Positions 5,253 to 19,689 of a stretch of DNA of 25,093 nucleotides are shown here, piece after piece; positions within the stretch are counted from its first letter, which is position 1; each line of letters opens with the position of its first letter. The position numbers and the translations under genes were made by a program. The stretch is from a virus: positions 1 to 25,093 of the IMG/VR virus record IMGVR_UViG_3300046733_000230. The stretch is one strand, 5' to 3'. Under the pieces are notes generated by a model. It saw only the letters and a program-made list of their open reading frames with translations. It did not search any database and was not told where the DNA came from.

Positions 5253-5260
5253 TATTTATT
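5253..5260 (-). promoter_or_regulatory. Possible late promoter box AATAAATA upstream of gp32
   Basis: AATAAATA overlaps the stop codon of the 421-aa gene and lies about 150 bases upstream of gp32. It differs from the GATAAATA/TATAAATA boxes elsewhere in the window only at its first base. It may give gp32 a second, late start site, but an AT-rich chance match is possible. Confidence 0.3.
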
Positions 5261-6524
5261 AATCTTCTACTATATTGTCTAGTTTTCTGGTAAAATCAAC
5301 AAATTCTAGTATTTCATCAGTTGTTTTGACTATACTTTCATTGTTAGTTTTAGAGATTAACTTCTTAATATTATTCAACGATTGCTCGTCTAATTTACTA
5401 CCTTTGCGTATTCTAGTACTACACTTTTCTACAAAATTCTTTACAACTTTATCATCTATAAACTCTGATATTTGTGTTAATTTATGAGCAATCTCAGAAT
5501 GTTTATTAGGATATTCTATTCCTTCTTCTGACATTGGCATTTGAATTTGTAGGCTGTCAATCTTAGTTGTGATATACTCGTCCATTTTTTGCTGGACTGA
5601 TAGTAGTTTATTAATTGTTGGGAACGCATTTAGTACATTATTGTCTACATGCGTTTCAACAAATAAATCTGTTAAATCTGTTTCTTCATTGGTAATTTCT
5701 AGTGAGTTAGTAAAGTCCACTGTTTCTACTGCTTTAGCATAAGACTTAGCACCACTCAATTGCTTTAGTGAATGCCTAAGTGATTGTACTGATTCTTTTG
5801 CTAGTGTTACTAGTGTACCATTTTCCTCGTTAACTAGGTTTTTGTTTTCAACATACCTAGCAAATTTTGATAGTGAGTCAATATTACTAACCATTTCGTT
5901 AATAGCACATCCAACTGTATCGTGTACTTCTCCACCGTTGTGTACATGCCTTGCCATTGCTCTAGCACCTGCTAAACTTTTATGTGGTAGCAAGAATCTT
6001 TCGTCTGCACGTTGGATGAATAACTTAGAAATTTGTCTACTTCTTGAGCCTCTTACTTCCTCGTTAACTGCTTTACCGTGTCTTACAACAATCTTTACTG
6101 CCTCTAATGGTTGGTAACTAGTTTTAGCACTACCGTACATTTTACCTAAACTTGCTTCTGTTACTTGATCTTGTTCTTGATTTTTCATTTTATTTATTTT
6201 CGCTTTATAACTTGAGTGCTTAGGTTTAATTGTTTTACCAAAAATTTTATAATCAAAAGCAAATAGGTTGTCGAGTGCTAATTTTCTAACGCCTTTATGG
6301 ATACTATCCATTCTGTCATCTTCAACATACTTAGATTTACTTAATTTAAGTTCGTTGTTTTCTTTGTCAATGGTTACCATAATATTAGGGTCATTGCTAT
6401 AAAAACGCACACCTGCTTCTGGGTCTAGGGTATCTTCGTCGAATTGGTCTGAAATACTTATAGGAATACCATGTCCTTTAAGAAATTCGAATACTCTATT
6501 ACCTAAGTCATCTTTGTTTTTCAT
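5259..6524 (-). CDS. Conserved unknown late protein next to the terminase
   Basis: This 421-aa protein has no recognised domain. The most ordered-looking part is residues about 155-225: basic (RGSRSRQISKLFIQRADERF), then ARAMARHVHNGG and a helical segment. The rest is predominantly helical and charged, with no membrane segment. It resembles unnamed proteins that sit beside the terminase in marine T4-like phages, so a structural or head-assembly role is reasonable but unproven. A late promoter box stands 5 bases before its ATG and there is no Shine-Dalgarno sequence, pointing to late, possibly leaderless expression. Confidence 0.85.
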   Translation of the reverse strand: MKNKDDLGNRVFEFLKGHGIPISISDQFDEDTLDPEAGVRFYSNDPNIMVTIDKENNELKLSKSKYVEDDRMDSIHKGVRKLALDNLFAFDYKIFGKTIKPKHSSYKAKINKMKNQEQDQVTEASLGKMYGSAKTSYQPLEAVKIVVRHGKAVNEEVRGSRSRQISKLFIQRADERFLLPHKSLAGARAMARHVHNGGEVHDTVGCAINEMVSNIDSLSKFARYVENKNLVNEENGTLVTLAKESVQSLRHSLKQLSGAKSYAKAVETVDFTNSLEITNEETDLTDLFVETHVDNNVLNAFPTINKLLSVQQKMDEYITTKIDSLQIQMPMSEEGIEYPNKHSEIAHKLTQISEFIDDKVVKNFVEKCSTRIRKGSKLDEQSLNNIKKLISKTNNESIVKTTDEILEFVDFTRKLDNIVED

Positions 6525-6529
6525 ATTAG

Positions 6530-6537
6530 TATTTATC
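6530..6537 (-). promoter_or_regulatory. T4-type late promoter box GATAAATA, 5 bases from the ATG
   Basis: The minus strand reads GATAAATA-CTAAT-ATG, ending in the start codon at 6524. T4 late promoters carry TATAAATA at about -13 to -6, so the A of the ATG would fall at +1. No ribosome-binding sequence lies between. Confidence 0.7.
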
Positions 6538-6548
6538 TAAATTATAGA

Positions 6549-8117
6549 TTATAAAACTCCTATAGGCAACGGACCATTCCAGTCGTCATCGTCATCTACA
6601 CTTGTTTCTATTTCATTATATACTGCGTCTTCGTATTGTGCTATATATGTAATCATTCTTACAGATACTAGAGTAGCCATTACTAAGTCATCGCTACCCC
6701 CTGGTTTTGCCGCAAATGTTGTGCCACGTGCTACAAACTCTTTTAATTCTCTAATTATGTTTTTACTACGCAATTTAAGTTTACCGTTTTCTATTAAACG
6801 TTTCATTGCTAATGCGCCTTCCATTTTATTTTTATGATGGGTATGAAAGCCTTTACGTCCTTTCTTGCCTTGAACTTTATTTGGCTCATGTAAGAATGTA
6901 CCTGGAAAACTTTCTTCGCCTGTGTCTCTGATGACCACAAGTGCCGCTTCGCCAATAGTATTATTCTCTACTGTCCAATATATATCGTTAGCACCATAAC
7001 TTTTTATTTCTTTTGCTATTTCCCTCAGCAGTTTAACCTGTCCTTCAATAGGTGTCTTATTGTGTTGCCACTCGCATACTTGATTCATCGTAGGTAAATC
7101 ATAACACACAATAGCCGCATTATCTCCACCTGTTCCTGTACTAGGATCAAGTGTAATTGCGTATATTTTTTTAGGATCTATCTTTTCATACCAACGTATT
7201 TGTCCACTACGTCTAATTGGGTCAACACCTTTCATGTCAACTAATTTAAGAGAGTCAATAAGTGTTTCGTCGTATATGATAAATTCGCATTCGTGTTCAC
7301 GCCTAAATCTTTCTTCGCCAATTCTACTACGTTCTGCTTTTGCCCAAAGTTCATCTCTGTCTGGGTGCTCTTGCCAATTAACACGGAATGCTTTGAATCC
7401 ATTTGTTCCTACATCTGTTTCCTCACCAAATTCATCGACTTGCTGTATTGCTTGGTGCCAAATATTAGCAAACGTGTCGTCGTCACTGTTTGGTGTGCTT
7501 GTTACAATACACTTACCGCCTGTACTTAGTGTTGGCGATAGTGCTGTCCAAAACTCAACAGCAATACGAGGCGGTACAAACGCAAACTCGTCTAAGTATA
7601 CTAATGACAAGGACATACCACGTCCAGTGTTTTCAGTTGTTGTAGCACTTACTATTCTGCTACCGTTATCAAAACTTAAACTACCTTTGTTGTATTCTGT
7701 TACACCTGCCCTTATATGATCAGGTACACTTTCATATGCGTATCTAATACGTTGCATAATTTCCTGTGCGCCTGTGTGCTTATGTGCCGCTACAAGTATT
7801 GTGCTGTCAGCGACAAACATAGCATACCAAAGTAAGTATGCGGCCGCACATGTTGTTTTACCTGTCTGTCTAGGCAACATGTTAATACTGTAACGATATT
7901 GGGAGTAGGTGTGAATTAACCTTTCCTGAAATTCAAAAGGTTCAAACTTGATTCCGCCTTTTGTTGGATGCTGAATCTTTACAAAATGTTCCATAAAGTA
8001 TGCTGGACCAGTGAGAGGGTCCATACAGTTGGAAATTTGTTCTATGTGGTCTTCGGTAAACGTTTGCTTTGCAAATGCTTTCTTCGTAAGACTAAAATCC
8101 TGCGTTCCTTGTGGCAT
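6549..8117 (-). CDS. 17: Terminase large subunit gp17
   Basis: This 522-aa packaging motor (T4 gp17 has 610) pumps DNA into the prohead and cuts the concatemer. The ATPase part shows Walker A RQTGKTT (83-89), Walker B with catalytic Glu LVYLDE (172-177) and the coupling motif STP (207-209). The C-terminal RNase H-like nuclease carries D324 in ITLDPSTGTGGDNAA, E384 in WTVENN and the D476-D477 pair in GGSDDLVMA. All the key residues expected of an active enzyme are present. The start is ATG 8117, five bases after a perfect TATAAATA. Small subunit gp16 lies two genes upstream. Confidence 0.97.
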   Translation of the reverse strand: MPQGTQDFSLTKKAFAKQTFTEDHIEQISNCMDPLTGPAYFMEHFVKIQHPTKGGIKFEPFEFQERLIHTYSQYRYSINMLPRQTGKTTCAAAYLLWYAMFVADSTILVAAHKHTGAQEIMQRIRYAYESVPDHIRAGVTEYNKGSLSFDNGSRIVSATTTENTGRGMSLSLVYLDEFAFVPPRIAVEFWTALSPTLSTGGKCIVTSTPNSDDDTFANIWHQAIQQVDEFGEETDVGTNGFKAFRVNWQEHPDRDELWAKAERSRIGEERFRREHECEFIIYDETLIDSLKLVDMKGVDPIRRSGQIRWYEKIDPKKIYAITLDPSTGTGGDNAAIVCYDLPTMNQVCEWQHNKTPIEGQVKLLREIAKEIKSYGANDIYWTVENNTIGEAALVVIRDTGEESFPGTFLHEPNKVQGKKGRKGFHTHHKNKMEGALAMKRLIENGKLKLRSKNIIRELKEFVARGTTFAAKPGGSDDLVMATLVSVRMITYIAQYEDAVYNEIETSVDDDDDWNGPLPIGVL

Positions 8118-8122
8118 GCAGT

Positions 8123-8130
8123 TATTTATA
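8123..8130 (-). promoter_or_regulatory. Late promoter box TATAAATA, 5 bases from the terminase ATG
   Basis: The minus strand reads TATAAATA-ACTGC-ATG (8130 to 8115), an exact match to the T4 late consensus. The start codon coincides with the expected transcription start, and no AGGAG-like sequence is present. Confidence 0.8.
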
Positions 8131-8154
8131 TAGGTTTTGGGTTATAAAAAGTGT

Positions 8155-8607
8155 TTACAGGCTTTTGTAACGATTCATAAGAGCGTTTAATATCTCTTTC
8201 TTATCGCCACCAATGCTGTTGTAACCTTGATCACTTTGTGGTTTGAGGCTAATAACTTTCATTTTTGGTTCTTCGCTATCACACGGTGATTCTTCTTCAC
8301 TGTGATCGTGCCCTGGGCATTCACATTCTGAACCTGGCTCGCCGCAATCATCACAAGTTTCTTCTTGTTCTTCGTGATCGTGTGCTTCTGGTTCATCTGT
8401 ACCAATACCAGCAAGTTTAAGTATTTGATGTAATTCATCCATACTGTCTGCGTTTGCTGTAGTTGTTATAGAAGCATTGCCTTGCTTTTGAGTTTTACTA
8501 TAAGTAACTCTTTCTTCACTTGAATCGTCTTGTGCGCCTGGCATGCCATATGGTGCGGCATTATAGAACGCCTCCATAATACTTCTCATTTGATCTGAAT
8601 TATTCAT
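8155..8607 (-). CDS. Unknown acidic Cys/His-rich late protein upstream of the terminase
   Basis: This 150-aa protein is not recognised. Residues about 55-75 include a helix ADSMDELHQILKLAGI, a short motif seen in unnamed proteins of marine T4-like phages. Residues about 80-113 are very acidic and contain a cluster of cysteines and histidines (CDDCGEPGSECECPGHDH, then SPCD), which could bind zinc or iron as a small knuckle. The C-terminus is a basic helix, KKEILNALMNRYKSL. The start overlaps the previous stop as TAATG, so translation is coupled. Its place between gp16 and gp17 suggests packaging or head assembly. Confidence 0.85.
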   Translation of the reverse strand: MNNSDQMRSIMEAFYNAAPYGMPGAQDDSSEERVTYSKTQKQGNASITTTANADSMDELHQILKLAGIGTDEPEAHDHEEQEETCDDCGEPGSECECPGHDHSEEESPCDSEEPKMKVISLKPQSDQGYNSIGGDKKEILNALMNRYKSL

Positions 8608-9296
8608 TATTGGCTTACCGGTCCTTGATTAATATCATATGAATTACCTTGTACATTTGGCTTATGTGCTAAACCAACTGCGTCTGCTAATCCTTTAAGA
8701 TCGTCGCCCATTAAACTACTTTTTGTTGGATAGTTACGGAAGTAATCTGCGCCTTTTTCTGCTTTGATTTTCATAAGTTCAGCAATAAATTTTTCATTAA
8801 ATTCTTCGCCATATAAACCTAATTCGTCTAAGTCTAAAAATTCGTTTTCTGCTTCGTAATGAGTCTGGTCGTCTTTAAGTAATTCAGCATCGTCCATTGA
8901 TACTTCTCTGTCTTTATCAAACTCTTCTCTATTTCTAGTAACATTATCTTCTAACTGTCTAGGTCCTTCAGTAGGTTGAATAACAATTTTACTTGGATCA
9001 ATGCCTAAGTGTACTGCTACCCATACTTCTAAAAGTCTTTCGTTAATTGGGTATTGTAATGTAACATCACAACTGCTTACTTCTGTTGGTCCTTGGACGC
9101 CTTTATTTTTAAAATCTAATGGCTCTTCCTGAATAGGAGTTCTTTTGAATGAACTTACACTTTGAACACCGTACTTACCAAGCACGTTTTCAATAAATGA
9201 TGCGTCTTGAGATCCATAGTCTCCAGCAAGTTTGATTCTGTAACTGAATGATTTTGAAAAACTTTCAGCAATATATTCTTTAAATGTTTTAGCCAT
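8607..9296 (-). CDS. Unknown late protein between terminase subunits
   Basis: This 229-aa protein is not recognised. The N-terminal ~115 residues (SYRIKLAGDYGSQ through LLEVWVAVHLGID) look like a mixed alpha/beta domain. The middle, about 117-170, is charged and acidic, and the C-terminus ends in a glycine/proline-containing tail. There is no membrane segment. It begins at ATG 9296 with AGGAG 10 bases upstream and a late promoter box 23 bases upstream, inside the end of gp16. Late timing and location suggest a virion or packaging protein. Confidence 0.85.
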   Translation of the reverse strand: MAKTFKEYIAESFSKSFSYRIKLAGDYGSQDASFIENVLGKYGVQSVSSFKRTPIQEEPLDFKNKGVQGPTEVSSCDVTLQYPINERLLEVWVAVHLGIDPSKIVIQPTEGPRQLEDNVTRNREEFDKDREVSMDDAELLKDDQTHYEAENEFLDLDELGLYGEEFNEKFIAELMKIKAEKGADYFRNYPTKSSLMGDDLKGLADAVGLAHKPNVQGNSYDINQGPVSQ

Positions 9297-9318
9297 ATTA
9301 TATAATCTCCTAACGTAC

Positions 9319-9810
9319 TTATTTATCTTTCTTGTTTAAAAATTGGAGTAATTGATTTCTATCCATTACAGCACTAGACTCATCAGAACTTGTTGAACCA
9401 CCGTCCATTGCGTCTATACGCAATTTTTTAAGTTGTAAATCTATCATACGCAATTTTTTATCTACTTTGGCATTTTTGCTATCCATTGCTATTTGTAGCA
9501 TTTTTCCTGCTGTTTCAAATATTCTACCAGCATGTGCGTCTTGTACATTCATACCTAAACTCATTAACTCTTCGTAACTATTTAAGGCTCTGTCTGCTAT
9601 GTTTTCCATATCGCCGTCGTGCTTAACAACATCTTTTACCTGTGGTAATGCTGAATCAATTTTTTCTGCGTTAGTTAGTGCTGTTGTAACTGCTACTTCT
9701 GATGGTGCTGTAGCAGGTTCTATACCAACTTCAACTACCTCTTGCTGAGATAGTTCTTTTAATTCATCCATACTTGGAAGATTAAATTCTTGTTCTAGTT
9801 TTCGAGTCAT
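9319..9810 (-). CDS. 16: Terminase small subunit gp16
   Basis: This 163-aa protein is close in length to T4 gp16 (164 aa), which forms rings that regulate gp17 and recognise DNA. The central helical hairpin, about residues 66-135, is the conserved-looking part: a first helix with ADRALNSYEELMSLG, a turn, RIFETAGKMLQIAMDSKNAKVDKKLR, then a basic helix MIDLQLKKLRID. This two-helix layout matches gp16 oligomerisation coiled coils. Flanking ends are low complexity. The ATG lies 4 bases after the gp4 stop. The call rests on length, helix pattern and the neighbouring gp17 and gp4. Confidence 0.75.
   Translation of the reverse strand: MTRKLEQEFNLPSMDELKELSQQEVVEVGIEPATAPSEVAVTTALTNAEKIDSALPQVKDVVKHDGDMENIADRALNSYEELMSLGMNVQDAHAGRIFETAGKMLQIAMDSKNAKVDKKLRMIDLQLKKLRIDAMDGGSTSSDESSAVMDRNQLLQFLNKKDK
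9320..9327 (-). promoter_or_regulatory. Late promoter box GATAAATA for the 229-aa gene
   Basis: GATAAATA overlaps the last codons and stop of gp16 (GAT AAA TAA). It is followed by 23 bases containing AGGAG before the ATG at 9296. Here the transcript would have a normal short leader with a ribosome site. Confidence 0.6.
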
Positions 9811-9814
9811 ACAC

Positions 9815-10258
9815 TTACTTACCTTTACGTTTCTTAGTATTGGCGTATATGTGATTCTCGTTTAACACTCTAAAACGTATGCCTTTACGTTGACACCATT
9901 CGTTTGCCGCTGTCCACTTGGCCATGTTTATCATTACTTGAACTTTCTCTGCTTGTCCTCTTGCTTGTTCCATAGTTGTTTGACTACCAGGTTTTATCTC
10001 AATCACTTCCATGTGTCGTTTGCCGGTCTTATCTGTATACAGAACTGTAAAGTCAGGTACATAAACTGTGTGCTTACCTGATACCGGATGCCTGTAAGGT
10101 ATCTTAATATTCTCACTTGCCCATTGTGTGATGTTTGGATGATTGTCGCACATTTTCATAAATGCTAATTCCCAACTACTACGGTAATAGGGTCTTTTAG
10201 CACCTACATACTTTTGCGTATTTTCAGGGAGAAATGTTCCTTTAAGAAATTTTGACAT
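9815..10258 (-). CDS. 4: Head completion protein gp4 (TnsA-like nuclease fold)
   Basis: This 147-aa protein, close to T4 gp4 (about 150 aa), finishes filled heads before tail joining. The visible pattern is YRSSWELAFMKMCDNHPNI (about 25-43), IPYRHPVSGKHTVYVPDF with Asp69, then EVIEIKPG with Glu87 and Lys89. E-x(n)-D-x(n)-E-x-K is the metal-nuclease layout of the TnsA-like fold attributed to this family. ATG 10258 is chosen over TTG 10264 because AAGGAG lies 6 bases before it. The junction with the upstream stop is TGATAATG. A Lys-rich tail (KKRKGK) closes the protein. Confidence 0.88.
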   Translation of the reverse strand: MSKFLKGTFLPENTQKYVGAKRPYYRSSWELAFMKMCDNHPNITQWASENIKIPYRHPVSGKHTVYVPDFTVLYTDKTGKRHMEVIEIKPGSQTTMEQARGQAEKVQVMINMAKWTAANEWCQRKGIRFRVLNENHIYANTKKRKGK

Positions 10259-10260
10259 TA

Positions 10261-10830
10261 TCAACTCCTTATGAGAGGATCAATAAATTTATTTTTGCTT
10301 CTGATTTTTTCGACTTTAAATGCTACTGCTTTAGGTAGAGTGTTATTAATAATTTCTAATGTTTCTGGATTAAGTTTAATCTTTTGTGTATCTATAGAAA
10401 TTATATTCTTGACTTTTCTGTAACTATCACTTGGATCAAACTCGTTGCCTGCGTCTGCCTCATATGTTTCTTTAGTTACAAACTCGTTATTAATCTGATA
10501 CTCGAATGTATTTTCTTTTTCTGTTAATATAGTATAATACGACGTAGGCAATCTATTATGTTGCTTGGATAAGTCAAAAAATGTATCAGCATAAAAGTTA
10601 CTGAGTTTTACTGTATATCCGCTACTTCTAAAATCGCTAAATACTTTTTCTCTTAATGGCGTATTACCACCAAATATTGTATCTGGTTTACTGCCAGTAT
10701 TTCTGTTTATAATATCTATATCTAGATCACTAATATTAATTTTTTCCCCAGTCACAGAAGTGTCAACAAACTTTCCATTATTTTCTGTTTGTGTTGTAGG
10801 AACTCCAAAATTTTTGTATATTTTACTCAT
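10261..10830 (-). CDS. Unknown late protein between tail-tube-like gene and gp4
   Basis: This 189-aa protein is not recognised. It begins MSKIYKNFGVPT and appears to be alpha/beta with no membrane segment. Near residues 75-105 it reads YTVKLSNFYADTFFDLSKQHNRLP, followed by a YYTILTEKENTFEYQI hairpin. T4 has gene 53 (baseplate wedge) next to gene 4, but I see no convincing gp53 signature. The ATG sits 2 bases after the stop of the upstream gene, with no clear Shine-Dalgarno, so coupling is likely. Probably a structural or morphogenesis protein. Confidence 0.85.
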   Translation of the reverse strand: MSKIYKNFGVPTTQTENNGKFVDTSVTGEKINISDLDIDIINRNTGSKPDTIFGGNTPLREKVFSDFRSSGYTVKLSNFYADTFFDLSKQHNRLPTSYYTILTEKENTFEYQINNEFVTKETYEADAGNEFDPSDSYRKVKNIISIDTQKIKLNPETLEIINNTLPKAVAFKVEKIRSKNKFIDPLIRS

Positions 10831-10832
10831 GA

Positions 10833-12014
10833 CTAGAAATTCAACTTATTGATGTTTTTGTTTTGTTTCTTAAACAATCCTGCTGTTGCTTCGTTTAATT
10901 TTTTATCTATTGCGTTGCCAATTAGGTTAGAGAAAAAACCACCTTGCGTTGTGCCTCCTCCAGAAGAGAGAATTGCTGGTACTTGTGATATCTCTAAATC
11001 TCTTTCCGCATCGTGCATTACTACTTGCTGTCTGGTACTGTTACGTGATTCTAAGCCAAGTAAACCTTTTACTATACCTTTTAATTTATCCTGTGATGCG
11101 TCAAATACAGGTGCTTTAGTTACATCTTCAATTAATTCTTTTAGGATATCGTCTTCTCCATAATTATAATTTAATATAGGACCGTATGCTAATTTTTCGT
11201 ATTCAATATTAAATGTTATTTCGCTTGGCACACCTGTACTAGCATAGTCTAGTTGTGTTACTTGTGCCGAAGTAAGTATTGGATTAATTGCTGTAGTTCT
11301 TGTTACTGTATCAGCATGTATTTGAAAAACGTGTATAGCATCAAAGAAGTTTTTTCTATTAATGCCATGTATGTCCATACCGTTCCGATCTGAATTAAAG
11401 GGCGACCCATCCGTATTAATAGTATAGTTATTAGCAATTAAATCAATGCCTTGATTATTATTATTTCTATTGGCTATATCATTGCCTTTGGCTTTAACTG
11501 CCTTAACGGCTGTTCCTGCTATATCATTGCCTTTATCATCTTTCTCTGCCTCTTTTGCTCTTACTCCTTTAACTTGGTCCCCTACATCAAATCTGCCGTC
11601 CATAAAATGATAATTGTAGAAGTTTTGCCATAACGCATACCACCGACTTTCTATGTCGTCATATACAGTTAAAGTGAAAGGTTTAAAATCTTTTGTTGTT
11701 ATAATTGGTTTAAGTTTGTTGTATTGGTTTTTCTTTTCAACAGTGAAATCAACACTTGGTATATCTACTGCTCTGACTAAAGATGAATATTTATAAAAAT
11801 CATTATTATTAAGAAACTGCTGACTTTCGTTTTCACCATTGACAAAAGCATATACTTGTGGATTTACCTCAAAATATACGACAAACTGAAAAGGCAAACG
11901 AGGCGGTCTACCGGTCTTAAAACTACCATACTGTTTACTAGCATGTCTAGGACCGGCTTGATATACGCCCGTTTGAACTTGTCCACCTATGACTTCTTTC
12001 CAGAATCTCCCCAT
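10833..12014 (-). CDS. Tail-tube-like structural protein (baseplate/tube junction candidate)
   Basis: This 393-aa protein lies directly downstream of tail tube gp19. Residues about 40-135 have a tube-like beta pattern: FQFVVYFEVNPQVYAF, then LVRAVDIPSVDFTVEKKNQYN, then the strand KPFTLTVYDDIESRWYALWQNFYNYHF. It resumes near 220-270 (FDAIHVFQIHA ... ITFNIEYEKLAYGP). This resembles gp19/gp54-type tube folds with a Lys/Asn-rich insertion at about 145-185. The C-terminal ~120 residues are helical and low complexity. T4 gp54 (tube initiator on the baseplate) is a known gp19 relative and is a reasonable guess, not an established match. SD is AGGAAAG before the ATG. Confidence 0.7.
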   Translation of the reverse strand: MGRFWKEVIGGQVQTGVYQAGPRHASKQYGSFKTGRPPRLPFQFVVYFEVNPQVYAFVNGENESQQFLNNNDFYKYSSLVRAVDIPSVDFTVEKKNQYNKLKPIITTKDFKPFTLTVYDDIESRWYALWQNFYNYHFMDGRFDVGDQVKGVRAKEAEKDDKGNDIAGTAVKAVKAKGNDIANRNNNNQGIDLIANNYTINTDGSPFNSDRNGMDIHGINRKNFFDAIHVFQIHADTVTRTTAINPILTSAQVTQLDYASTGVPSEITFNIEYEKLAYGPILNYNYGEDDILKELIEDVTKAPVFDASQDKLKGIVKGLLGLESRNSTRQQVVMHDAERDLEISQVPAILSSGGGTTQGGFFSNLIGNAIDKKLNEATAGLFKKQNKNINKLNF

Positions 12015-12036
12015 GGTCTTTCCTAATTACTTAGGA

Positions 12037-12657
12037 TTATACCTGAGTAGATGTGGTAGAACCAAGCGGTGAAATTAGTGGGAATGGATCACCTGCCGCT
12101 ACTTTACCACCTAATGTGTTTGGACCCGCAACATGTACAGCATTATCGTATCTTACTTGTAAATCAATATTTACAATATCACTTTGATCATATGAATGAT
12201 CGCTGTAGTTTACTTCTGCTAACATACACCCTTCTAATTCCCACTGTTCAGTAGGTTCGGCGTTTGTACCATCTAAAACTTGAATAAGTGCGTCGAACTT
12301 ATAGTCCCCGCCACTTACTGCTGTAGTCTGTTCAAAATGGTTGAACTGTCTTTGGATCTGTTGGCCGACTAATGCGGCAACACTATTAGTAATATCATCA
12401 CGTAGGCTTAGACTTATTGCGTTCCATTCATGTTTACCAGCAATGTAGGCTCTTGAGTTATAACTGTGAACTACAACTTCTTCCATTGAAAAAGTAGGTC
12501 TAGTTACACTCACTACATTTTGAGTTAGTTCGTCTGTTCTTCCACCAGCACCAAAACCTGTTAAGATTACACGGAATCTATATTTAAGTTTAGGTTGTAG
12601 AATACCAAGACGAGCGCCTTCTATTGGTACACCAAATTTATCTTTTGTTACTGCCAT
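12037..12657 (-). CDS. 19: Tail tube protein gp19
   Basis: This 206-aa protein (T4 gp19 has 163) polymerises into the inner tail tube. The core has the expected strand order: YRFRVILTGFG, VVSVTRPTFSMEEVVVHSYNSRAYIAGKHEWNAISLSLRDD (split by turns), then a helix VAALVGQQIQRQFN and a final strand pair WELEGCMLAEVNYSDHSYD ... VNIDLQVRYDNA. The S-F-x-x-E-x-V-x-x-Y-N-S segment is typical of the family. It has its own late promoter box 40 bases upstream and a strong TAGGAGT ribosome site, and is separated from gp18 by a terminator. Confidence 0.93.
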   Translation of the reverse strand: MAVTKDKFGVPIEGARLGILQPKLKYRFRVILTGFGAGGRTDELTQNVVSVTRPTFSMEEVVVHSYNSRAYIAGKHEWNAISLSLRDDITNSVAALVGQQIQRQFNHFEQTTAVSGGDYKFDALIQVLDGTNAEPTEQWELEGCMLAEVNYSDHSYDQSDIVNIDLQVRYDNAVHVAGPNTLGGKVAAGDPFPLISPLGSTTSTQV

Positions 12658-12697
12658 TTCTATTACTCCTAATTAAGTATTACTCAATCTATACGTT

Positions 12698-12705
12698 TAT
12701 TTATC
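12698..12705 (-). promoter_or_regulatory. Late promoter box GATAAATA for gp19
   Basis: GATAAATA (12705-12698) lies 40 bases before the gp19 ATG and just beyond the gp18 terminator. A TAGGAGT ribosome site (12671-12665) lies in the leader. This is an independent late transcription start for the abundant tube protein. Confidence 0.7.
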
Positions 12706-12716
12706 ATTTTACTGCC

Positions 12717-12748
12717 AAAAATAAAGGGCGGTTAAATCCGCCCTTTAT
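12717..12748 (-). terminator. Intrinsic terminator after gp18
   Basis: ATAAAGGGCGG (12748-12738 on the minus strand) and CCGCCCTTTAT (12731-12721) form an 11-bp GC-rich stem with a 6-base loop. On the minus strand it runs into TTTT. It lies 18 bases after the gp18 stop and is the clearest terminator in the window. Confidence 0.9.
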
Positions 12749-12765
12749 AATAGTTAAATTAAGGT

Positions 12766-15597
12766 TTAACTAGAGCCTGTTTGACCAAGTGTTGACTGAA
12801 TTCTGATCGGAATATAAATAAACTCAACTGCTTTAGTTGGTTGTATTGCTATATCAAGATATAATTCATTTCTGTCAATTCTAGCCGGTGTGTTATTAGT
12901 TGTGTCACAAACACTAATGAAGTCAAATAAACCTCTTAATGTTACAAGTTCTGACAACAATGAGTCAGCAACTCTCTTAACACCACTTCTTGTAATACCG
13001 TCATTTGGTTCAAATAAGAAAGGCTTAACTGCGATATCTAATTGATATCTAATGTAGTTAATCAATCTTGCTACGTTGATTCTGTCCAACGCACTTGCTG
13101 ATGGATTCAATGTCTTTTGTCCAAATACCACTAAGCCTCTTCCTGGGAAGTTTGCTATTGGGTTAATTTTATTGGAGTAAAGAGCATCTCTTTGTCCTTC
13201 ATTAAGTGATACTGGCTGGAACTCATTAGATGTATTATCTAAATAACCAACACTTGTAGCATTTTGTACAAGACCTCTTTGATATCCTGCTGGAGCAAAC
13301 CACTGATAAGCCACGTTGTCATTGAATGCCATAGTTCTTAAAGCAATATGACTAGGTGGTACCATAACGTTAGTACCGTCAAGGTTAGTAGTTAATCCTG
13401 CTGGATAGTGTACTGATACATACGGACTAGATGTAATTAATCCATCTTCCCCGTTTTCACTAGCATTGCTTGAATTCTTAGACCATGCGTTCAACGATGT
13501 TGCGTCTGATTTAAGTCTTAATGGTGCGTCACCTACAATAAATGCTACTTCTTTTTTATCAGTGTTCAAAGTAACCATTTCGTCCATTAACTCTGGATAG
13601 CCTGGTGAAGAAATTAAGTTAAAGAAGTTTACTTCACTTCTAATATCTTCATTACTTGCTATAGCAGATTGTAAACCTCTAACTACCACTTTTCTCTGAG
13701 CCTTTCTGCCCATATATGGAGTTCCGTCTACTTTGTTACCGGAATGGTCAACCCATACATTACCGTGATTGACACCACTAGTTGTATAGTTTATTTTATA
13801 CTGCTTAACATTTTTGCCTGATCCACGTTTGTTCCATGCTAGAATGTTATTTGGTACAGTTGCCGCCGCTGGTGCGTCTGTGTCTAGACCTGCTTCAGTT
13901 GTTGCTGTACTTGGGCCTAGATCTTTAAAGATAACTCCGTCGCTTGTTACTTGGTCGCCATTGTCGACTAGTTCCCATGCACTTGATCTTCTTTTATAAA
14001 TTTTTGGATAGTTTTCTAAATCATCTGAATCTACCCAAACATCGCCGTCTACTAAAGAACCACCATCGCTTTGCATAGTTGGTTCACTAGCGGCAACATT
14101 TACATCATAGTCTGCTGAGTATAATGTCCAAGTTTGAGTTCCAGCAACATTTTTGTTGTACCATAAGTTGACAGTAGCACTATCGTCATACCATAGTGTT
14201 CCGTCTGTTAACTCGCCAACTGGTGCTGTAGTACCAAAACTATAATTAACTGCTGATACAGATTGTACTGGTTTCCAGTTACTATATGTTCCTGCTGTAA
14301 TACCTAAATTACTAGGACCGTAACCAGCAACTGTTCCTGCTCTAACTCTGATATCTTTACCAGTAGTATCAGTAAGTGTTACTTTACTGCTATCGTTTGA
14401 AGCCGTTACAGTTGAAGCACCTGCGGAACTTAGAGCCGCGTTAATGTCAAGGACTAAATCATCGACACTTGCTTTACCGTTATCTGTTTCAGTTGTGAAT
14501 GTTACATTTACATTTGCTCCATGGTTTAGGTTTAACACTAAACTTACTAGACCACTATGTGGTGAAACATCGACATTACTTTGAGCCGCACTACTTTGAA
14601 CTTGTAGGCTTGTGGCACCGTTATGTCTTTTAATATTGAATTTGCCGTTAACATAAGCATCATCGTTATCTGGATCAAATTCTACAAATAAGTCACCAGC
14701 AGATGGACTGCTAATGGCTGTATATGCCGCTGATGTGTTAGCATAAGCACTTGCTGAACTGCTAACCCAAGATTTTGTTGATGAGTTATATGTTTTAACG
14801 CCATATTTTAGACCACTTGCTAATGATGTTGTTTGAATAATCAAATCGCCATTTGCTAATGCGCCACTGTCAGCCTGTACAACAGGTCTGTTTAAGTGAG
14901 TACAAACTTGGAAGTCTGTATTAACCACGTCTGTGAAACTTGTAGCATTTGTAGTCATGTCATACCATACACTTGAATACTTGTAGTAGTATGTTATGTT
15001 TGCAATGGCATTGCCACTGCTATCAACACCTAAAACTGCTATGTCGCCGTCTTTGCCGACTGAATTTTTAGGTGCTCCACCGCCCGATACATCTTCTTTC
15101 TTAAAAATGTATGGTGATGTGAATTCTTCATATTTTGAAGTTGTTGTGTTGTATTTGAAAATACCCCATTTGGTTGCTGAACTATCCAACCAAACTGTTC
15201 CGTCTGCTGGAGCAGTTGATGGAGCACTTGTTAGTGGTTTAAGTCCATTAAGATCAACATTTGCTCTAAGAACGTATGCTCTTGAAGCCAATCCTAAGAA
15301 ACTATGAGCCGCTAATAATCCATACTCATTAAGTTCATTACCATGTGAAGGTGTTCCGCCCGAACTATAAAAAGTTGGGTTTCCGTACTGTTGTAAAAGT
15401 TCTCTTTGACTTGTAATTAATTTTACTGAGTTTGCTTCCGCTACTTTAGTAAAACCAGCAATGCCGCTTCCATCAGGATTAAGTTTATCTTGATGAGTCG
15501 CAATTATAATCAAAGGTACTGTACCAGGTCCTCCCGGACTGTAAAAACTTTCGTCTGATACTGTTATATCTACACCAGGTGATACTAATGTTGCCAT
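12766..15597 (-). CDS. 18: Tail sheath protein gp18, with a large repeat-bearing insertion
   Basis: This 943-aa sheath protein is far longer than T4 gp18 (659 aa). It surrounds the tail tube and contracts. The N-terminus (MATLVSPGVDITVSDESFYSP) and the C-terminal ~320 residues (from about 625; including VAYQWFAPAGYQRGL, GRGLVVFGQKTL, NVARLINYIRYQLD and a final beta strand VEFIYIPIRIQST) match sheath proteins. Residues about 120-620 are an insertion with repeats of a G-D/T-x-W-x-D ... Y-K ... W unit and, at about 340-440, a T/S/N-rich beta domain (DLVLDINAALSSAGAS ... VTLTDTTGK) reminiscent of flagellin-type surface domains. AGGAG precedes the ATG. A terminator follows. Confidence 0.95.
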   Translation of the reverse strand: MATLVSPGVDITVSDESFYSPGGPGTVPLIIIATHQDKLNPDGSGIAGFTKVAEANSVKLITSQRELLQQYGNPTFYSSGGTPSHGNELNEYGLLAAHSFLGLASRAYVLRANVDLNGLKPLTSAPSTAPADGTVWLDSSATKWGIFKYNTTTSKYEEFTSPYIFKKEDVSGGGAPKNSVGKDGDIAVLGVDSSGNAIANITYYYKYSSVWYDMTTNATSFTDVVNTDFQVCTHLNRPVVQADSGALANGDLIIQTTSLASGLKYGVKTYNSSTKSWVSSSASAYANTSAAYTAISSPSAGDLFVEFDPDNDDAYVNGKFNIKRHNGATSLQVQSSAAQSNVDVSPHSGLVSLVLNLNHGANVNVTFTTETDNGKASVDDLVLDINAALSSAGASTVTASNDSSKVTLTDTTGKDIRVRAGTVAGYGPSNLGITAGTYSNWKPVQSVSAVNYSFGTTAPVGELTDGTLWYDDSATVNLWYNKNVAGTQTWTLYSADYDVNVAASEPTMQSDGGSLVDGDVWVDSDDLENYPKIYKRRSSAWELVDNGDQVTSDGVIFKDLGPSTATTEAGLDTDAPAAATVPNNILAWNKRGSGKNVKQYKINYTTSGVNHGNVWVDHSGNKVDGTPYMGRKAQRKVVVRGLQSAIASNEDIRSEVNFFNLISSPGYPELMDEMVTLNTDKKEVAFIVGDAPLRLKSDATSLNAWSKNSSNASENGEDGLITSSPYVSVHYPAGLTTNLDGTNVMVPPSHIALRTMAFNDNVAYQWFAPAGYQRGLVQNATSVGYLDNTSNEFQPVSLNEGQRDALYSNKINPIANFPGRGLVVFGQKTLNPSASALDRINVARLINYIRYQLDIAVKPFLFEPNDGITRSGVKRVADSLLSELVTLRGLFDFISVCDTTNNTPARIDRNELYLDIAIQPTKAVEFIYIPIRIQSTLGQTGSS
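13738..15207 (-). repeat. About six ~30-aa W/D-rich repeats in the sheath insertion
   Basis: In gp18 numbering the units are: 131-160 (DGTVWLDSS...FKYN), 182-213 (DGDIAVLG...YYKYSSVWYD), 248-279 (NGDLIIQTT...KTYNSSTKSW), 299-328 (AGDLFVEFD...NIKRHNG), 464-493 (DGTLWYDDS...LWYNKNVAGTQTW) and 516-545 (DGDVWVDSD...IYKRRSSAW). A partial unit, HGNVWVD, is at 611-617. They share G-D/T-x-hydrophobic-x-D, a turn, an aromatic-K, and usually a closing W. They probably fold as beta hairpins on the outer surface of the sheath. Confidence 0.65.
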
Positions 15598-15631
15598 AAT
15601 ATTCTCCTATTATACCTTAATTGGTTACATG

Positions 15632-15639
15632 TATTTATT
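15632..15639 (-). promoter_or_regulatory. Possible late promoter box AATAAATA for gp18
   Basis: TAATAAATA ends 34 bases before the gp18 ATG. The AGGAGAA ribosome site is in the leader. It differs from GATAAATA at the first base only. gp18 needs strong late expression and no better box is present. Confidence 0.5.
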
Positions 15640-15710
15640 AAAAAAATGCTTATTTGCGGTATTATAGAAATGTCAAATCTGTAAAATTAGACGAAAAAGA
15701 TAAATATACC

Positions 15711-16391
15711 TCAGACTATCTCAAGTCCGTTATCGTTAAATATTTGTGGTTTTTGTGGAAGTTTTTCAAGGATTTCGTCAACTTGAATATATAATTCTTC
15801 AAGTGTACCGTCGTTAGTAACAGTAAAGTCAATATCAGCACCAATCCAATCCCATTCACTGGCGTGAACGTGTTTGAAATCTCTATTCATTATGTGCCTT
15901 GCTACGGCATCGCCGGCATTGGCCTGGGACGCAATATTATACCATTCTGGTTTATCGTCACGTTGTATAAGAATTGTTGTACCGCCCATTCGCTTAATAA
16001 GTTCCAGTTCGTTTCTAAACCTACAGTCACTAATTACAACACATTCGTTTTGGTTATGTAATTTTTTTACTCTGTATTCCAGGCTGTTTAGCCAAATATC
16101 TGGATTAAAATGGTCACGCATAACGTCTGTGCCTATTAATTGCAATGCTGATCTAGGAGTAAAGTTGGGTATGCCTAGTTTTTTGCTCCAGTATAGATCT
16201 ATACCTTCTCTGAATTCTCTGCTTTCGTCTGTTTCGCCCTCAAGCATTTCTCTATCCCAACCAAATACACTTGTACATAAGTCTTTAATTGGTCCCGCGA
16301 ATGATGTTGGAATACAGCCTTTGGTTGCTAGATACTGTGCTACTGTGTTCTTGCCCGAACCGATATTACCTAAAATTCCTATTGTGTTCAT
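15711..16391 (-). CDS. 1: Deoxynucleoside monophosphate kinase (gp1-like)
   Basis: This 226-aa protein (T4 gp1 has 241) phosphorylates dNMPs to dNDPs to supply replication. The P-loop is GNIGSGKNT at residues 8-16. Residues F31-A-G-P-I-K and LCTSVFGWDREMLEG follow as in gp1-type kinases. TPRSALQLIGTDVMRDHF (78-95) is the conserved substrate helix region. The SDCRFRNELELIK segment (120-132) matches the Walker B/arginine region of this family. Its ATG directly abuts the gp13 stop (TAA-ATG) with AGGAT as a modest ribosome site, so it is cotranscribed with gp13, unusual for a nucleotide-metabolism gene. Confidence 0.92.
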   Translation of the reverse strand: MNTIGILGNIGSGKNTVAQYLATKGCIPTSFAGPIKDLCTSVFGWDREMLEGETDESREFREGIDLYWSKKLGIPNFTPRSALQLIGTDVMRDHFNPDIWLNSLEYRVKKLHNQNECVVISDCRFRNELELIKRMGGTTILIQRDDKPEWYNIASQANAGDAVARHIMNRDFKHVHASEWDWIGADIDFTVTNDGTLEELYIQVDEILEKLPQKPQIFNDNGLEIV

Positions 16392-17147
16392 TTATCCTAT
16401 TATAAAGCCGTAGTTTCTATTACCTTCTTCCATATTAATTATTGATTGTAATAATCTTTCTTTATCAGAAGCGGCCTCTTGCTTTAATGCCTCGCCGTTT
16501 AACTGTACAGCACCGCCTGGTCCTGGCAACCCTGAAGAATATTTACTTCTTGCTTCGCCTAGCATCATTTTTGATTCTGCTAAGGCCCAGTCTGCCATCC
16601 ATGGTCTAGTATAATCGTTTTGTAATAAACTTTGTTCGGGGACTAAGTTTGATACTTGCATCATTATATCTTCTGCTACGGATATTTTTCTTAGAATTTT
16701 TAATACTTTGGTGTTAGAGTTAAATGTAAAATCGTATTCGCCACCAAATATTCTATTGAGTGTTTCTTTATATTGTGTAAATGCGTCATAGTTTGCTAAT
16801 CCACCTACAACACCAGCATTAATCAAATAAGTGTTTTGGAAAGCAACATCGAAAGGATCAAAGTTTGTACCTGTTCCTATATTTCCGCCTCCAACACCGC
16901 GTCTATATATACGCCTAATATTTAATATCTCGCTAGGTAATGTATATTCTTGTGTATCCACTTGGGTTAGTAGAAATGTATAACTCTCTTCTACTGCGGC
17001 ATCACTTCTACTGCGAAGTGTTTGTATTGCTCTATCTATAGCAAGGTTATAATGTTCTGGATCTAACTCCACGTCAACCATGCCGTCACCTAAACGGAGT
17101 TTTAGTTCATTGATTAATTTATCTCTTGGGGTTTCAGTTGCACTCAT
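16392..17147 (-). CDS. 13: Neck protein gp13
   Basis: This 251-aa protein (T4 gp13 has 309) forms the head-tail neck with gp14. The N-terminal region reads DKLINELKLRLGDGMVDVELDPEHYNLAIDRAI across turns, followed by TLRSRSDAAVEESY and YTLPSEILNIRRIYRRGVGG. The C-terminal part WMADWALAESKMMLGEARSKY then GLPGPGGAVQLNG is typical of gp13 in marine T4-like phages. A late box GATAAATA lies 6 bases before the ATG without a Shine-Dalgarno sequence. In T4, genes 13, 14 and 15 are adjacent and co-oriented; here gp14/gp15 are on the other strand beyond two other genes. Confidence 0.9.
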   Translation of the reverse strand: MSATETPRDKLINELKLRLGDGMVDVELDPEHYNLAIDRAIQTLRSRSDAAVEESYTFLLTQVDTQEYTLPSEILNIRRIYRRGVGGGNIGTGTNFDPFDVAFQNTYLINAGVVGGLANYDAFTQYKETLNRIFGGEYDFTFNSNTKVLKILRKISVAEDIMMQVSNLVPEQSLLQNDYTRPWMADWALAESKMMLGEARSKYSSGLPGPGGAVQLNGEALKQEAASDKERLLQSIINMEEGNRNYGFIIG

Positions 17148-17153
17148 ATTAAC

Positions 17154-17161
17154 TATTTATC
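17154..17161 (-). promoter_or_regulatory. Late promoter box GATAAATA, 6 bases from the gp13 ATG
   Basis: The minus strand reads GATAAATA-GTTAAT-ATG. The box overlaps the stop codon of the upstream 385-aa gene (TTTTTGATAAATAG). There is no AGGAG-like sequence before the ATG. Confidence 0.7.
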
Positions 17162-18317
17162 AAAAAGTCTTAAGTATAATAGTATGCTCGTTGAATCTAC
17201 CGTTCATTTTAGTAGAAGTTGTGGTTAATTCCTCAAACGATTTTTTACATTTCTGTTTTCCTGCTTCAAATAGTTTAAGCATCTCTGCTGGTTTCCTGAG
17301 TGTTTTTTGTAAACTTGAATCTTCATTAAATTCTTGTAGTGTAGTACCTTTTACCATAATACCAGTACCTGGTCTTTGCATGTTTCTAGGATCTACAGTT
17401 TTAGCATGATATACGCCAATCTTTCTAGTCTTAGTATTGTATACCCAAACTTCATTGGCATACACAATATCTGTTGGCGGTAAACTTGCTAAAGCAAATT
17501 GCGGATCATTAACTTGATACTTTAATTTCTTCACGATAGCCTCTTTAGACCGTGCTTTAGGCTTACGAGCCTTGCGTGTAGTCGCTTTTGTTTTGATAAT
17601 GGTATCACAAGCAGTATTAATCGTTTCGTAGTACTGTACGAAGGCTTTACGCATTTTAACATCAAAGTGACTGTATGCTTCTTTTAGTTCTTCGTCTTTC
17701 CATTCTAGTACTTCTAGTGCTTCAGCATGTTGAGCCGCAAATTCTTCTTTTATAATTTTAGCATGTGGGCCTTTAATTTCAGGTTGGTATGACATCATCA
17801 TTTTATAAGGATCAAAATCTTTAACTGTTTTAGCACCGTCAACCATCTCGTCTAAGAAGCCTTCAAAGTCACCGCATAAATCACTTACCTGTTCTTTCAT
17901 TCTGTCTTGAATGCTGATTACCGGCTTTGCTTTCTGTTCTTCTAGTTTATCTTTCTTTTCCAGTAGACATTTTTTACCACGCTCAATCCATTCGGATTTT
18001 CTTTTCTCGTAGTGTTCTCTGATCTTCTCCGGCATATAACCTAGCATGTGGTGTATGTATATTGAAGTAGAATACGAACTAAATGCCCAATCAGGATTAG
18101 CAAGTATAATTTTTACTTCTTCTGGTGTCCACCCGGAATGTTTCTTGACCCATTCTTTTACAATGGGCATTGATTTTGTTTTGTTTATTTCTGTACGCAC
18201 AAAGTATTCACAACTACGGAATGCTACTGCTTGTTCCTCAAGGTCAGTGAGGAGTTTCAGTTCTTTCCATTTAGGTTCAACTGTAATGTATACTGATCTT
18301 ATTTTCTTCTTAGCCAT
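17160..18317 (-). CDS. Conserved unknown charged protein upstream of gp13
   Basis: This 385-aa, Lys/Glu-rich protein is not recognised. Residues about 80-140 form a basic helical region (MPEKIREHYEKRKSEWIERGKK ... EEQKAKP). About 250-275 is strongly basic (KATTRKARKPKARSKEAIVKKLKY). The C-terminal part has a beta-rich signature, ANEVWVYNTKTRKIGVYHA, followed by GTGIMVKGTTLQEFNED and SLQKTLRKPAEML, which I associate with unnamed proteins of marine T4-like phages. The basic stretch could bind DNA. No ribosome site stands out before ATG 18317 (ATTATTGGT precedes it). Function unknown. Confidence 0.85.
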   Translation of the reverse strand: MAKKKIRSVYITVEPKWKELKLLTDLEEQAVAFRSCEYFVRTEINKTKSMPIVKEWVKKHSGWTPEEVKIILANPDWAFSSYSTSIYIHHMLGYMPEKIREHYEKRKSEWIERGKKCLLEKKDKLEEQKAKPVISIQDRMKEQVSDLCGDFEGFLDEMVDGAKTVKDFDPYKMMMSYQPEIKGPHAKIIKEEFAAQHAEALEVLEWKDEELKEAYSHFDVKMRKAFVQYYETINTACDTIIKTKATTRKARKPKARSKEAIVKKLKYQVNDPQFALASLPPTDIVYANEVWVYNTKTRKIGVYHAKTVDPRNMQRPGTGIMVKGTTLQEFNEDSSLQKTLRKPAEMLKLFEAGKQKCKKSFEELTTTSTKMNGRFNEHTIILKTF

Positions 18318-18371
18318 ACCAATAATTACTCAATTTTAAAACTATATATAATTTTTCTGGCAAAAACGGTG

Positions 18372-18563
18372 TCAAATAGAATCTTTATGTAATTCTACTG
18401 AGCGAATTTGCGGATCTCTTTTACGTGGTTTGCCCATTGACCAGAGCCTATCCCACATCATATTAGCACCTATGCCGATGCCTTCCTTTAAACCAATGTT
18501 GTACGAGGATATGCCAATGCCTAACATACACACACCAAAAATCATGTATTCTAATATTTCCAT
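18372..18563 (-). CDS. Small single-span membrane protein
   Basis: This 63-aa protein starts at ATG 18563 (MEILEYMIFG). Residues about 7-34 form one hydrophobic, glycine-rich helix (GVCMLGIGISSYNIGLKEG, with small-x3-small spacing that favours helix packing). The tail is basic (KPRKRD), so the C-terminus is probably cytoplasmic. An upstream in-frame ATG at 18599 would lie inside the -35 element of the promoter described at 18571-18599 and is rejected. It could be a holin-like, spanin-like or host-membrane protein; there is no sequence evidence for any one of these. Confidence 0.6.
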   Translation of the reverse strand: MEILEYMIFGVCMLGIGISSYNIGLKEGIGIGANMMWDRLWSMGKPRKRDPQIRSVELHKDSI

Positions 18564-18570
18564 AAACAGT

Positions 18571-18599
18571 ATAATAACAAATTTATGATCAGTTGTCAA
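18571..18599 (-). promoter_or_regulatory. Sigma70-type promoter for the small membrane protein
   Basis: On the minus strand, TTGACA (18599-18594), a 17-base spacer and TATTAT (18576-18571) are followed by ACTGTTT and the ATG at 18563. The expected start point falls on or next to the start codon. It is back to back with the plus-strand late box at 18603. Confidence 0.6.
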
Positions 18600-18602
18600 T
18601 CT

Positions 18603-18610
18603 GATAAATA
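18603..18610 (+). promoter_or_regulatory. Late promoter box GATAAATA, 5 bases from the gp14 ATG
   Basis: The plus strand reads GATAAATA-CAGTT-ATG with the ATG at 18616. There is no Shine-Dalgarno sequence. The geometry is the same as before gp17 and the 421-aa gene, here on the opposite strand. Confidence 0.75.
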
Positions 18611-18615
18611 CAGTT

Positions 18616-19689
18616 ATGCCAAGAATAAGTTTATGGAATCCAGTTAAAAGAAACGACTACAAGTTTGTAGACGGTATTGTTGCGGAAAGTATATACGCAG
18701 GCGGTACTGGTGTGAATGTTCACAAATACCTAGGTGTACACAGCCAAGGAGACACAAACGACTTCACACAGCCACTAGAAGAAAATAATTATGGTTCAGA
18801 CGGAGACCAAAGAACAGGCGAAACATTTATACAAGATGTTCTATTCTTAGAAAATAGAGATAGAAAGTATAGCGACGATATTTATGAATTGCGTGGAGCA
18901 TATAATGTTGGTGATAACGACTTTGATCTAACGCAATTTGGTATGTTCCTATCTAACGATACACTTTTTATGAACTTCCATATTGAAACAATGGTATCTA
19001 CTATAGGTAGAAAATTAATGGCAGGCGATGTTATAGAATTACCGCATTTACGAGATGATTTATTACTAGATGAACGCAAAGATGCTGTTAACCGATTCTA
19101 TGTTGTAACAGATGCCAGTAGGCCAGCCGATGGATTTGATCCAAATTGGTGGCCTCATATGTGGAGATGTAAGTTAGGCCCAATATCCGACTCACAAGAG
19201 TACAGAGATATTATTGGGTATGGTGACGAAGAAGACGATTTACGAAATGTTATTAGTACATACAAAGACGAAATCGATATATCTGATGCTATTGTACAAC
19301 AAGCAGAAAATAATGTACCAAACGATCCGTACTTTGCCGAAGGCGCTCATTTATTTGTAGATGAAAATGCTAAAGGTAAGCCATTTATAGGCACAATAGA
19401 AGGTGCGCCAAATGGTGCTACATTGTTAGGTAGCGGTATTTCGTTTCCATTATCATCAGCAGAAGGCGATTATTTTTTAAGAACAGATTTTAATCCTAGT
19501 AGAATATTTAAAAAGCAAGGTACTCGATGGGTTAAAGTAGCAGACGATAACAAAAGAGTGTTCTCTAGTGCTAATAGAATCCTAGATGGATTCATAAATA
19601 ATACCACACAAACGACAAATACTGATGAATCTTCATCCGATGAGAGAACGTATGTTAGTAAAATCGTTAAACCAAAAACGGATAATTAA
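18616..19689 (+). CDS. 14: Neck protein gp14
   Basis: This 357-aa protein (T4 gp14 has 256) is the head-tail connector partner of gp13. The diagnostic region is residues about 103-162: FDLTQFGMFLSNDTLFMNF, ETMVSTIGRKLMAGDVIELPHLRDD and AVNRFYVVTDASR, followed by WWPHMWRCKLGPISDSQEY. The C-terminal extension carries one copy of the G-D-x-F-x-x-D ... I-F-K ... W-V-K repeat (283-310), like the units in the sheath. The tail is Ser/Thr/Asn-rich. It is the first plus-strand gene after the strand switch and is followed by gp15 after 2 bases. Confidence 0.88.
   Translation: MPRISLWNPVKRNDYKFVDGIVAESIYAGGTGVNVHKYLGVHSQGDTNDFTQPLEENNYGSDGDQRTGETFIQDVLFLENRDRKYSDDIYELRGAYNVGDNDFDLTQFGMFLSNDTLFMNFHIETMVSTIGRKLMAGDVIELPHLRDDLLLDERKDAVNRFYVVTDASRPADGFDPNWWPHMWRCKLGPISDSQEYRDIIGYGDEEDDLRNVISTYKDEIDISDAIVQQAENNVPNDPYFAEGAHLFVDENAKGKPFIGTIEGAPNGATLLGSGISFPLSSAEGDYFLRTDFNPSRIFKKQGTRWVKVADDNKRVFSSANRILDGFINNTTQTTNTDESSSDERTYVSKIVKPKTDN

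Follow-up and report, generated by a model that had tools for sequence, protein, structure and literature searches.

Genes and late boxes in the window

The DNA studied here, referred to below as the window, is a 25,093-base fragment of a T4-like myophage taken from IMG/VR. Its gene set includes UvsX, a single-strand binding protein, the terminase, the tail tube and sheath, a gp13-like adaptor, a gp14-like protein and gp15. Among named terminases, the closest to that of the window come from the PA5oct group (58.8%), Phosso (49.7%) and GAP32 (44.3%). The major capsid gene, gp23, was found neither in the window nor in G001, a 130-kb sequence of the same clade whose terminase (in L024) is 93% identical; both are fragments. 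A 621-aa protein encoded at 22624-24489 (minus strand) carries a CHASE2 domain (PF05226) and an adenylate/guanylate cyclase domain (PF00211), which is unexpected for a T4-like phage. The genes and promoter elements that bear on late expression are as follows.

5259..6524, minus strand: gene for a 421-aa virion structural protein (phrog_13484), predicted leaderless
6537-6530, minus strand: late box GATAAATA, 5 nt ahead of the ATG (6524) of the 421-aa gene
6549..8117, minus strand: terminase large subunit gene, predicted leaderless
8130-8123, minus strand: late box TATAAATA, 5 nt ahead of the terminase ATG (8117)
9320..9327, minus strand: late box GATAAATA, 23 nt ahead of a 229-aa gene (8607-9296), with AGGAG; leadered
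9816..9823, minus strand: degenerate box GGTAAGTA, 5 nt ahead of the ATG of a 163-aa gene (9319-9810)
12698..12705, minus strand: late box GATAAATA, 40 nt ahead of the tail tube gene (12037-12657), with AGGAG; leadered
15632..15639, minus strand: late box AATAAATA, 34 nt ahead of the sheath gene (12766-15597), with AGGAG; leadered
16392..17147, minus strand: gp13-like head-tail adaptor gene (phrog_211), predicted leaderless
17161-17154, minus strand: late box GATAAATA, 6 nt ahead of the gp13 ATG (17147)
18571..18599, minus strand: divergent sigma-70-like promoter TTGACA-17-TATTAT (11/12), adjoining the gp14 late box
18603-18610, plus strand: late box GATAAATA, 5 nt ahead of the gp14 ATG (18616)
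18616..19689, plus strand: gp14-like neck gene (phrog_11591), then gp15 (PF16724), predicted leaderless

The first-pass annotation had placed four boxes 5, 5, 6 and 5 bases before ATG codons and had set them against late genes of the window that are led by a Shine-Dalgarno (SD) motif, namely the 229-aa, tube and sheath genes; reading the sequence directly shows both statements to be exact. The 8-bp box NATAAATA stands upstream of late genes, as in T4-type late promoters, and the SD motif is absent at all four close-box ATGs, as in leaderless mRNAs. The window holds an ordinary number of boxes (for KATAAATA, 11 vs 7.25 +/- 2.90 in shuffled sequences). The gp13 box and the stop codon of the preceding gene overlap. 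The gp14 gene is alone on its strand, with no co-directional gene directly upstream; its label comes from its placement ahead of gp15 and from a virion-protein profile, with no gp14 profile behind it. For the 163-aa gene, NTAAATA stands at this spacing in orthologs from other lineages, and the orthologs of the sister clade described below have the full box. A further family, represented at 24734-25042 (minus strand) by a gene cut by the contig end, shows a GTG 5 nt after NATAAATA in 10/13 members and is a possible case of a leaderless GTG start.

Spacing between boxes and start codons

Spacing was taken as the distance from the nearest NATAAATA to the first ATG of each open reading frame of at least 80 aa, in the window and its relatives (L009-L132). 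The 354 boxes found over 1426 such frames comprise 133 at spacing 5, 21 at spacing 6 and 8 at spacings 7-16, in a redundant set, with seven contigs present in duplicate and many loci closely related, where the first ATG was taken by rule as the start and many starts are predictions. On the same frames, 20 letter permutations of the motif gave at most 7 occurrences at spacing 5-6. Eight gene families have at least one start at this spacing and five have at least ten: gp14 (43/71), the 421-aa family (41/44), gp13 (40/59), the terminase (27/42) and the GTG family cut by the window end (10/13).

A spacing histogram over a whole genome had been named beforehand as the refuting test of the idea, and in G001 it has its peak at 5-6. 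There, 35 boxes lie within 60 nt of a gene start: 20 are at spacing 5-6 and 13 at 17-45, and the range 7-16 is empty. For 20 permuted motifs at the same gene starts, the mean at spacing 5-6 is 0.4 and the maximum 2. Moreover, when gene calls are left aside, 27 copies of NATAAATA are found 5-6 nt from an ATG, vs a mean of 2.9 and a maximum of 8 in 20 Markov-1 simulations, and the total of 71 boxes is not above the simulated mean of 74.5. It is the spacing of the boxes, not their number, that departs from chance.

Two individual loci of G001 deserve mention. At L138:4865-5161 (plus strand), a 98-aa frame, which we take to resemble a ClpS-type adaptor, has GTAAATA 6 nt before its ATG. At L136:4758-5000 (plus strand), a sigma-70-like TTGACA-17-TATAAT overlaps a AATAAATA located 5 nt before the ATG, and an early and a late start may possibly lie there a few bases apart.

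Two classes of late genes

Spacing and SD content go together. With AGGA, GGAG or GAGG at -20 to -4 counted as SD-like, such a motif accompanies 1/164 boxes at spacing 5-6 vs 159/182 at 17-45 in the window and its relatives. The same split is seen in the sister clade (1/59 close vs 62/64 at spacing 12-45), in a more distant set of loci (0/47 close vs 42/61 far) and in G037, an uncultured contig of 328 kb (0/18 close vs 33/49 far). The near-empty zone at 7-16 is what would be expected if a leader had to be either absent or roomy enough for an SD motif. With the bimodal spacing, these counts support the earlier proposal that two classes of late message exist.

The bases downstream of the box indicate where transcripts would begin. 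In the 62 distinct leadered boxes from G001 and G037, the strongest position is box+6, with A in 71%, and T stands at box+5 in 55%; the A at box+6 reaches 67% over 276 distinct leadered boxes from the uncultured sets. This T-A signature of the leadered class coincides with the place that the A of the ATG occupies in the close class. Of 150 distinct boxes at spacing 5, 90% carry T at box+5 and 9% carry C, and in 17 distinct spacing-6 boxes the A is again always preceded by T or C, shifted one base downstream; over G001 ATGs at large, the preceding base is C or T in 45%. In T4, the late box is placed at -13 to -6 in the portion of PMC1524935 consulted, and about one helical turn upstream of the start in that of PMC2988020. 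With this geometry, spacing 5 would put +1 on the A of the ATG. The predicted start of late transcripts at that A draws support from the spacing peak and the gap beside it, from the SD content of the two classes, from the T-A signature, from the conservation of the spacing among orthologs with diverging flanks and from the orthologs that share the start codon.

Conservation and switching among orthologs

Orthologs were counted without selecting for the box, those with 80% identity or more being termed close. A box at spacing 5-6 precedes 38/38 close orthologs of gp14, 40/40 of gp13, 27/29 of the terminase and 3/3 of the 421-aa gene. For the last of these, orthologs below 80% keep the arrangement as well (34/35, or 37/38 overall). 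One terminase, that of L041, has a far box, and a box is absent in 4/26 distinct terminases. Below 80% identity, 5 gp14 orthologs are leaderless and 24 leadered (24/29 boxes at 12-45), and the gp13 orthologs are all leadered (0 leaderless; 19/19 boxes at 12-45).

The distant gp13 and gp14 orthologs shown in the alignments mostly have an SD motif and start at the equivalent residue. Distant gp14 proteins with a box at 18-20 and an SD motif begin with MPRLSLW, and the leaderless ones with MPRISLW or MPKISLW; in gp13 the start position is likewise shared and the N-termini are more divergent. Protein trees indicate one change of state in gp13 and two in gp14, the exact number being unsure as some branches are long. 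As read from their sequences, orthologous gp13 and gp14 genes switch between the close and the leadered arrangement with the start codon unchanged.

In some gp13 members (L114, L116, L118 and L120, by a presumptive locus assignment), a terminator-like hairpin, CCTCCGGTAG...CTATCGGAGGCTTTTT, holds the late box CTAAATA in its loop. The 3' arm of this hairpin, CGGAGG, would serve the new transcript as an SD motif, so that termination of the upstream message and initiation of the following one could both depend on a single element.

Occurrence in uncultured and cultured phages

A search with an alignment of ten terminases yielded 78 further loci. In the sister clade (27 loci, 60-68% terminase identity), 59/135 boxes are at spacing 5-6, and each of the 27 loci has at least one box-like site (NTAAATA) at this spacing. 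In the distant set (51 loci, 56-60% identity), 47/128 are at spacing 5-6, with 7 more at spacing 4 and 11 at spacing 7. Across lineages the flanks upstream of the box diverge freely, and the box and its spacing are kept.

Among larger uncultured contigs, spacing 5-6 accounts for 18/79 boxes in G037 and 6/21 in G003 (5/20 when analysed in pieces). The leaderless share drops in more distant lineages, with 2/22 in G038, 2/15 in G039, 1/13 in G004 and 1/12 in G007. In cultured phages only 1/176 boxes has this spacing: T4 0/24, Syn9 0/14, PA5oct 1/34, GAP32 0/35, S-PM2 0/24 and, from partial sequences, Phosso 0/29 (358 of 469 kb) and KVP40 0/16 (199 of 245 kb). Compared with this cultured set, Fisher tests give 1.3e-17 for G001, 2.3e-9 for G037, 0.03 for G038 and 0.02 for G039. 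The division into leaderless-type and leadered late genes would be best explained as a stable trait of this uncultured T4-like lineage. A divergent pair of leaderless-type genes with facing late boxes and a short spacer was also observed in G037 (L430:15615-15890, minus strand, and 15923-16423, plus strand), and a similar pair occurs at 16.3 kb of G003.

A gp55-type sigma factor is encoded in G037 (E = 1.6e-73), together with gp23, and also in G038 and G039, which like G037 carry the close-box trait; G004 and G007 have a gp55 homolog. None was found in G001, which is a fragment. The gp33 profile PF16805 gave 0 matches in 15 records and matched nowhere. A scan with five gp55 relatives, intended to place gp55 in the clade of the window, returned 80 loci with few late boxes (10 at spacing 5-6); none could be linked to this clade, and 20 of the larger gp55 contigs are without enrichment for close boxes.

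How the close-box genes may be expressed

Taken together, the data make it very probable that the four close boxes are T4-type (gp55-type) late promoters giving leaderless mRNAs, and that they belong to a leaderless late class typical of the lineage. Transcripts from them would have their first base on the A of the ATG or at most one base away, so that leaderless mRNAs would direct the synthesis of the terminase, the 421-aa virion protein, gp13 and gp14. Initiation would dispense with the SD motif and would depend on ribosomes that accept a 5'-terminal AUG. For the sheath, the tube and the 229-aa gene, a like box 17-45 nt upstream would instead yield a leader with an SD motif.

Alternatively, the close boxes may be real promoters with translation proceeding mostly by termination and reinitiation on polycistronic RNA, the leaderless RNA being incidental. 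In G001, 17/20 leaderless-type genes have a same-strand upstream neighbour, so that most could also sit on read-through RNA, and the median distance over all 20 is 22 nt. However, the neighbour is on the opposite strand for gp14 and two others of the 20, and for gp14, which diverges from its upstream neighbour, such a mechanism cannot account. Moreover, incidental promoters would leave the exact 5-6 spacing, the T or C before the ATG and the empty 7-16 gap unexplained, and we regard this alternative as improbable. Considerably less probable is the proposal that the octamer at the ATG acts at the RNA level, as an initiation element standing in for the SD motif on longer mRNAs. It would fit the occurrence of the octamer where the SD motif is missing, but the identical octamer is found 17-45 nt before SD-led genes in the same genomes, with the T-A signature at box+5/+6, and in T4, S-PM2 and KVP40 it is established as the late promoter, according to the consulted parts of PMC1524935 and PMC2984593. 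Finally, the mechanical choice of the first ATG leaves a very slight chance that real start codons lie elsewhere and that the ATG beside the box is in frame by chance or belongs to the promoter, but SD-led orthologs share the first residue (gp14 MPRLSLW) and codon position 3 is least conserved directly after the ATG in all four families, this being the only result used from a conservation profile whose rows were picked for having the box and whose gp13 row is off register for spacing-6 members.

A possible function of the split

If leaderless late mRNAs are indeed produced, read-through RNA from upstream may be poorly translated at the close-box genes, since their AUG is internal to it and lacks an SD motif. 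It can tentatively be proposed that only RNA begun at the gene's own late promoter is well translated, by which these genes would be kept late-only and at modest output, and that very abundant virion proteins would retain SD leaders. In the window, the leaderless-type terminase, gp13 and gp14 are packaging or neck proteins, and the sheath and tube are leadered, though this split between low-copy and high-copy proteins is based on very few genes with known function. In T4 virions, sheath and tube are far more abundant than the terminase, gp13 and gp14. The major capsid gene in G037, G038 and G039 has an SD-like leader and no close box, which fits the abundance idea, for three genes only. The leaderless-type genes of G001 are mostly without an informative profile; examples with one are glutaredoxin-like (thioredoxin domain), cytidyltransferase-like and 2OG-oxygenase-like.

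On a genome-wide scale, two translation regimes may perhaps exist, although we hold this with less than even confidence: a leaderless one for packaging, neck and many unknown genes, gated by each gene's own late promoter and responsive to 70S ribosomes and initiation factors, and an SD-dependent one for abundant virion parts. In that case a widespread uncultured lineage would use leaderless translation throughout the genome, as an additional level of control over late expression. A coupling of leaderless output to the state of the host ribosomes, as the first-pass annotation had suggested, is possible and speculative.

Other features of the leaderless-type genes were considered. Several of them start alike (M-K/R-hydrophobic-acidic), and capsid-targeting N-termini were rejected as an explanation because what we take to be the prohead-protease motif is not enriched: it occurs in 1/22 leaderless, 1/18 leadered and 2/95 genes without a box in G001, and in 1/22, 1/55 and 12/332, respectively, in G037. 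Terminators lie just upstream of 22/72 leaderless vs 5/91 leadered promoters in the distant group, an association that stays a lead since related terminase genes inflate the first count; elsewhere they precede 2/22 leaderless promoters in G001, 1/22 in G037 and 5/68 in the sister clade. RNA folding over the first 40 nt differs little (median -1.25 vs -2.3) and was left unused.

Relation to known late promoters and leaderless mRNAs

Leaderless translation and T4-type late promoters are each known, and their systematic combination appears to be a variant of T4-type late expression; within the open-access literature searched, no description of T4-type leaderless late promoters was found. Late transcription in T4 is textbook knowledge, and the boxes of the seven cultured phages almost always leave room for a leader. 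A large group of environmental relatives appears to have shifted many late promoters to an exact spacing at the start codon. The switching among orthologs would offer a natural experiment on when leaderless translation gets chosen, and the arrangement supplies a simple rule by which starts and late genes of such contigs can be annotated, together with a sharp prediction, that 5' ends lie at the ATG.

The resemblance to the gp55/gp33/gp45 system of T4 lies in the octamer [N]ATAAATA, placed ahead of structural and packaging genes, and in the gp55-type sigma of trait-carrying relatives. The difference lies in the distance to the ATG, nearly always 12-45 nt in cultured T4-like phages and 5-6 nt here for a large share of genes. 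Even the PA5oct-like, GAP32-like and Phosso jumbo phages, whose terminases are the nearest named ones, lack the leaderless class (1, 0 and 0 sites, respectively).

With leaderless bacterial and phage mRNAs such as lambda cI, the close class shares an expected 5'-end start codon and the absence of an SD motif (PMC9031893, in the part consulted). However, lambda cI is a single leaderless gene, whereas here one late promoter class of a lytic T4-like phage would yield many. As an idea, leaderless phage RNA is not new, given a remark in the accessible part of PMC5312081 that phage transcripts are often leaderless, yet the AR9 leaders given there measure 26-491 nt.

Late-only translation is also known in T4: for gene e and I-TevI, RNA from the late promoter is translated well and longer RNA is not, as described in the part of PMC3014915 consulted. 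In these cases, as in soc and gene 49, an inhibitory hairpin forms in the read-through RNA and the SD motif is present, whereas here the SD motif is absent. If the purpose that we favour, with some hesitation, is the right one, this absence could restrict proteins to late RNA more simply than the hairpins of T4.
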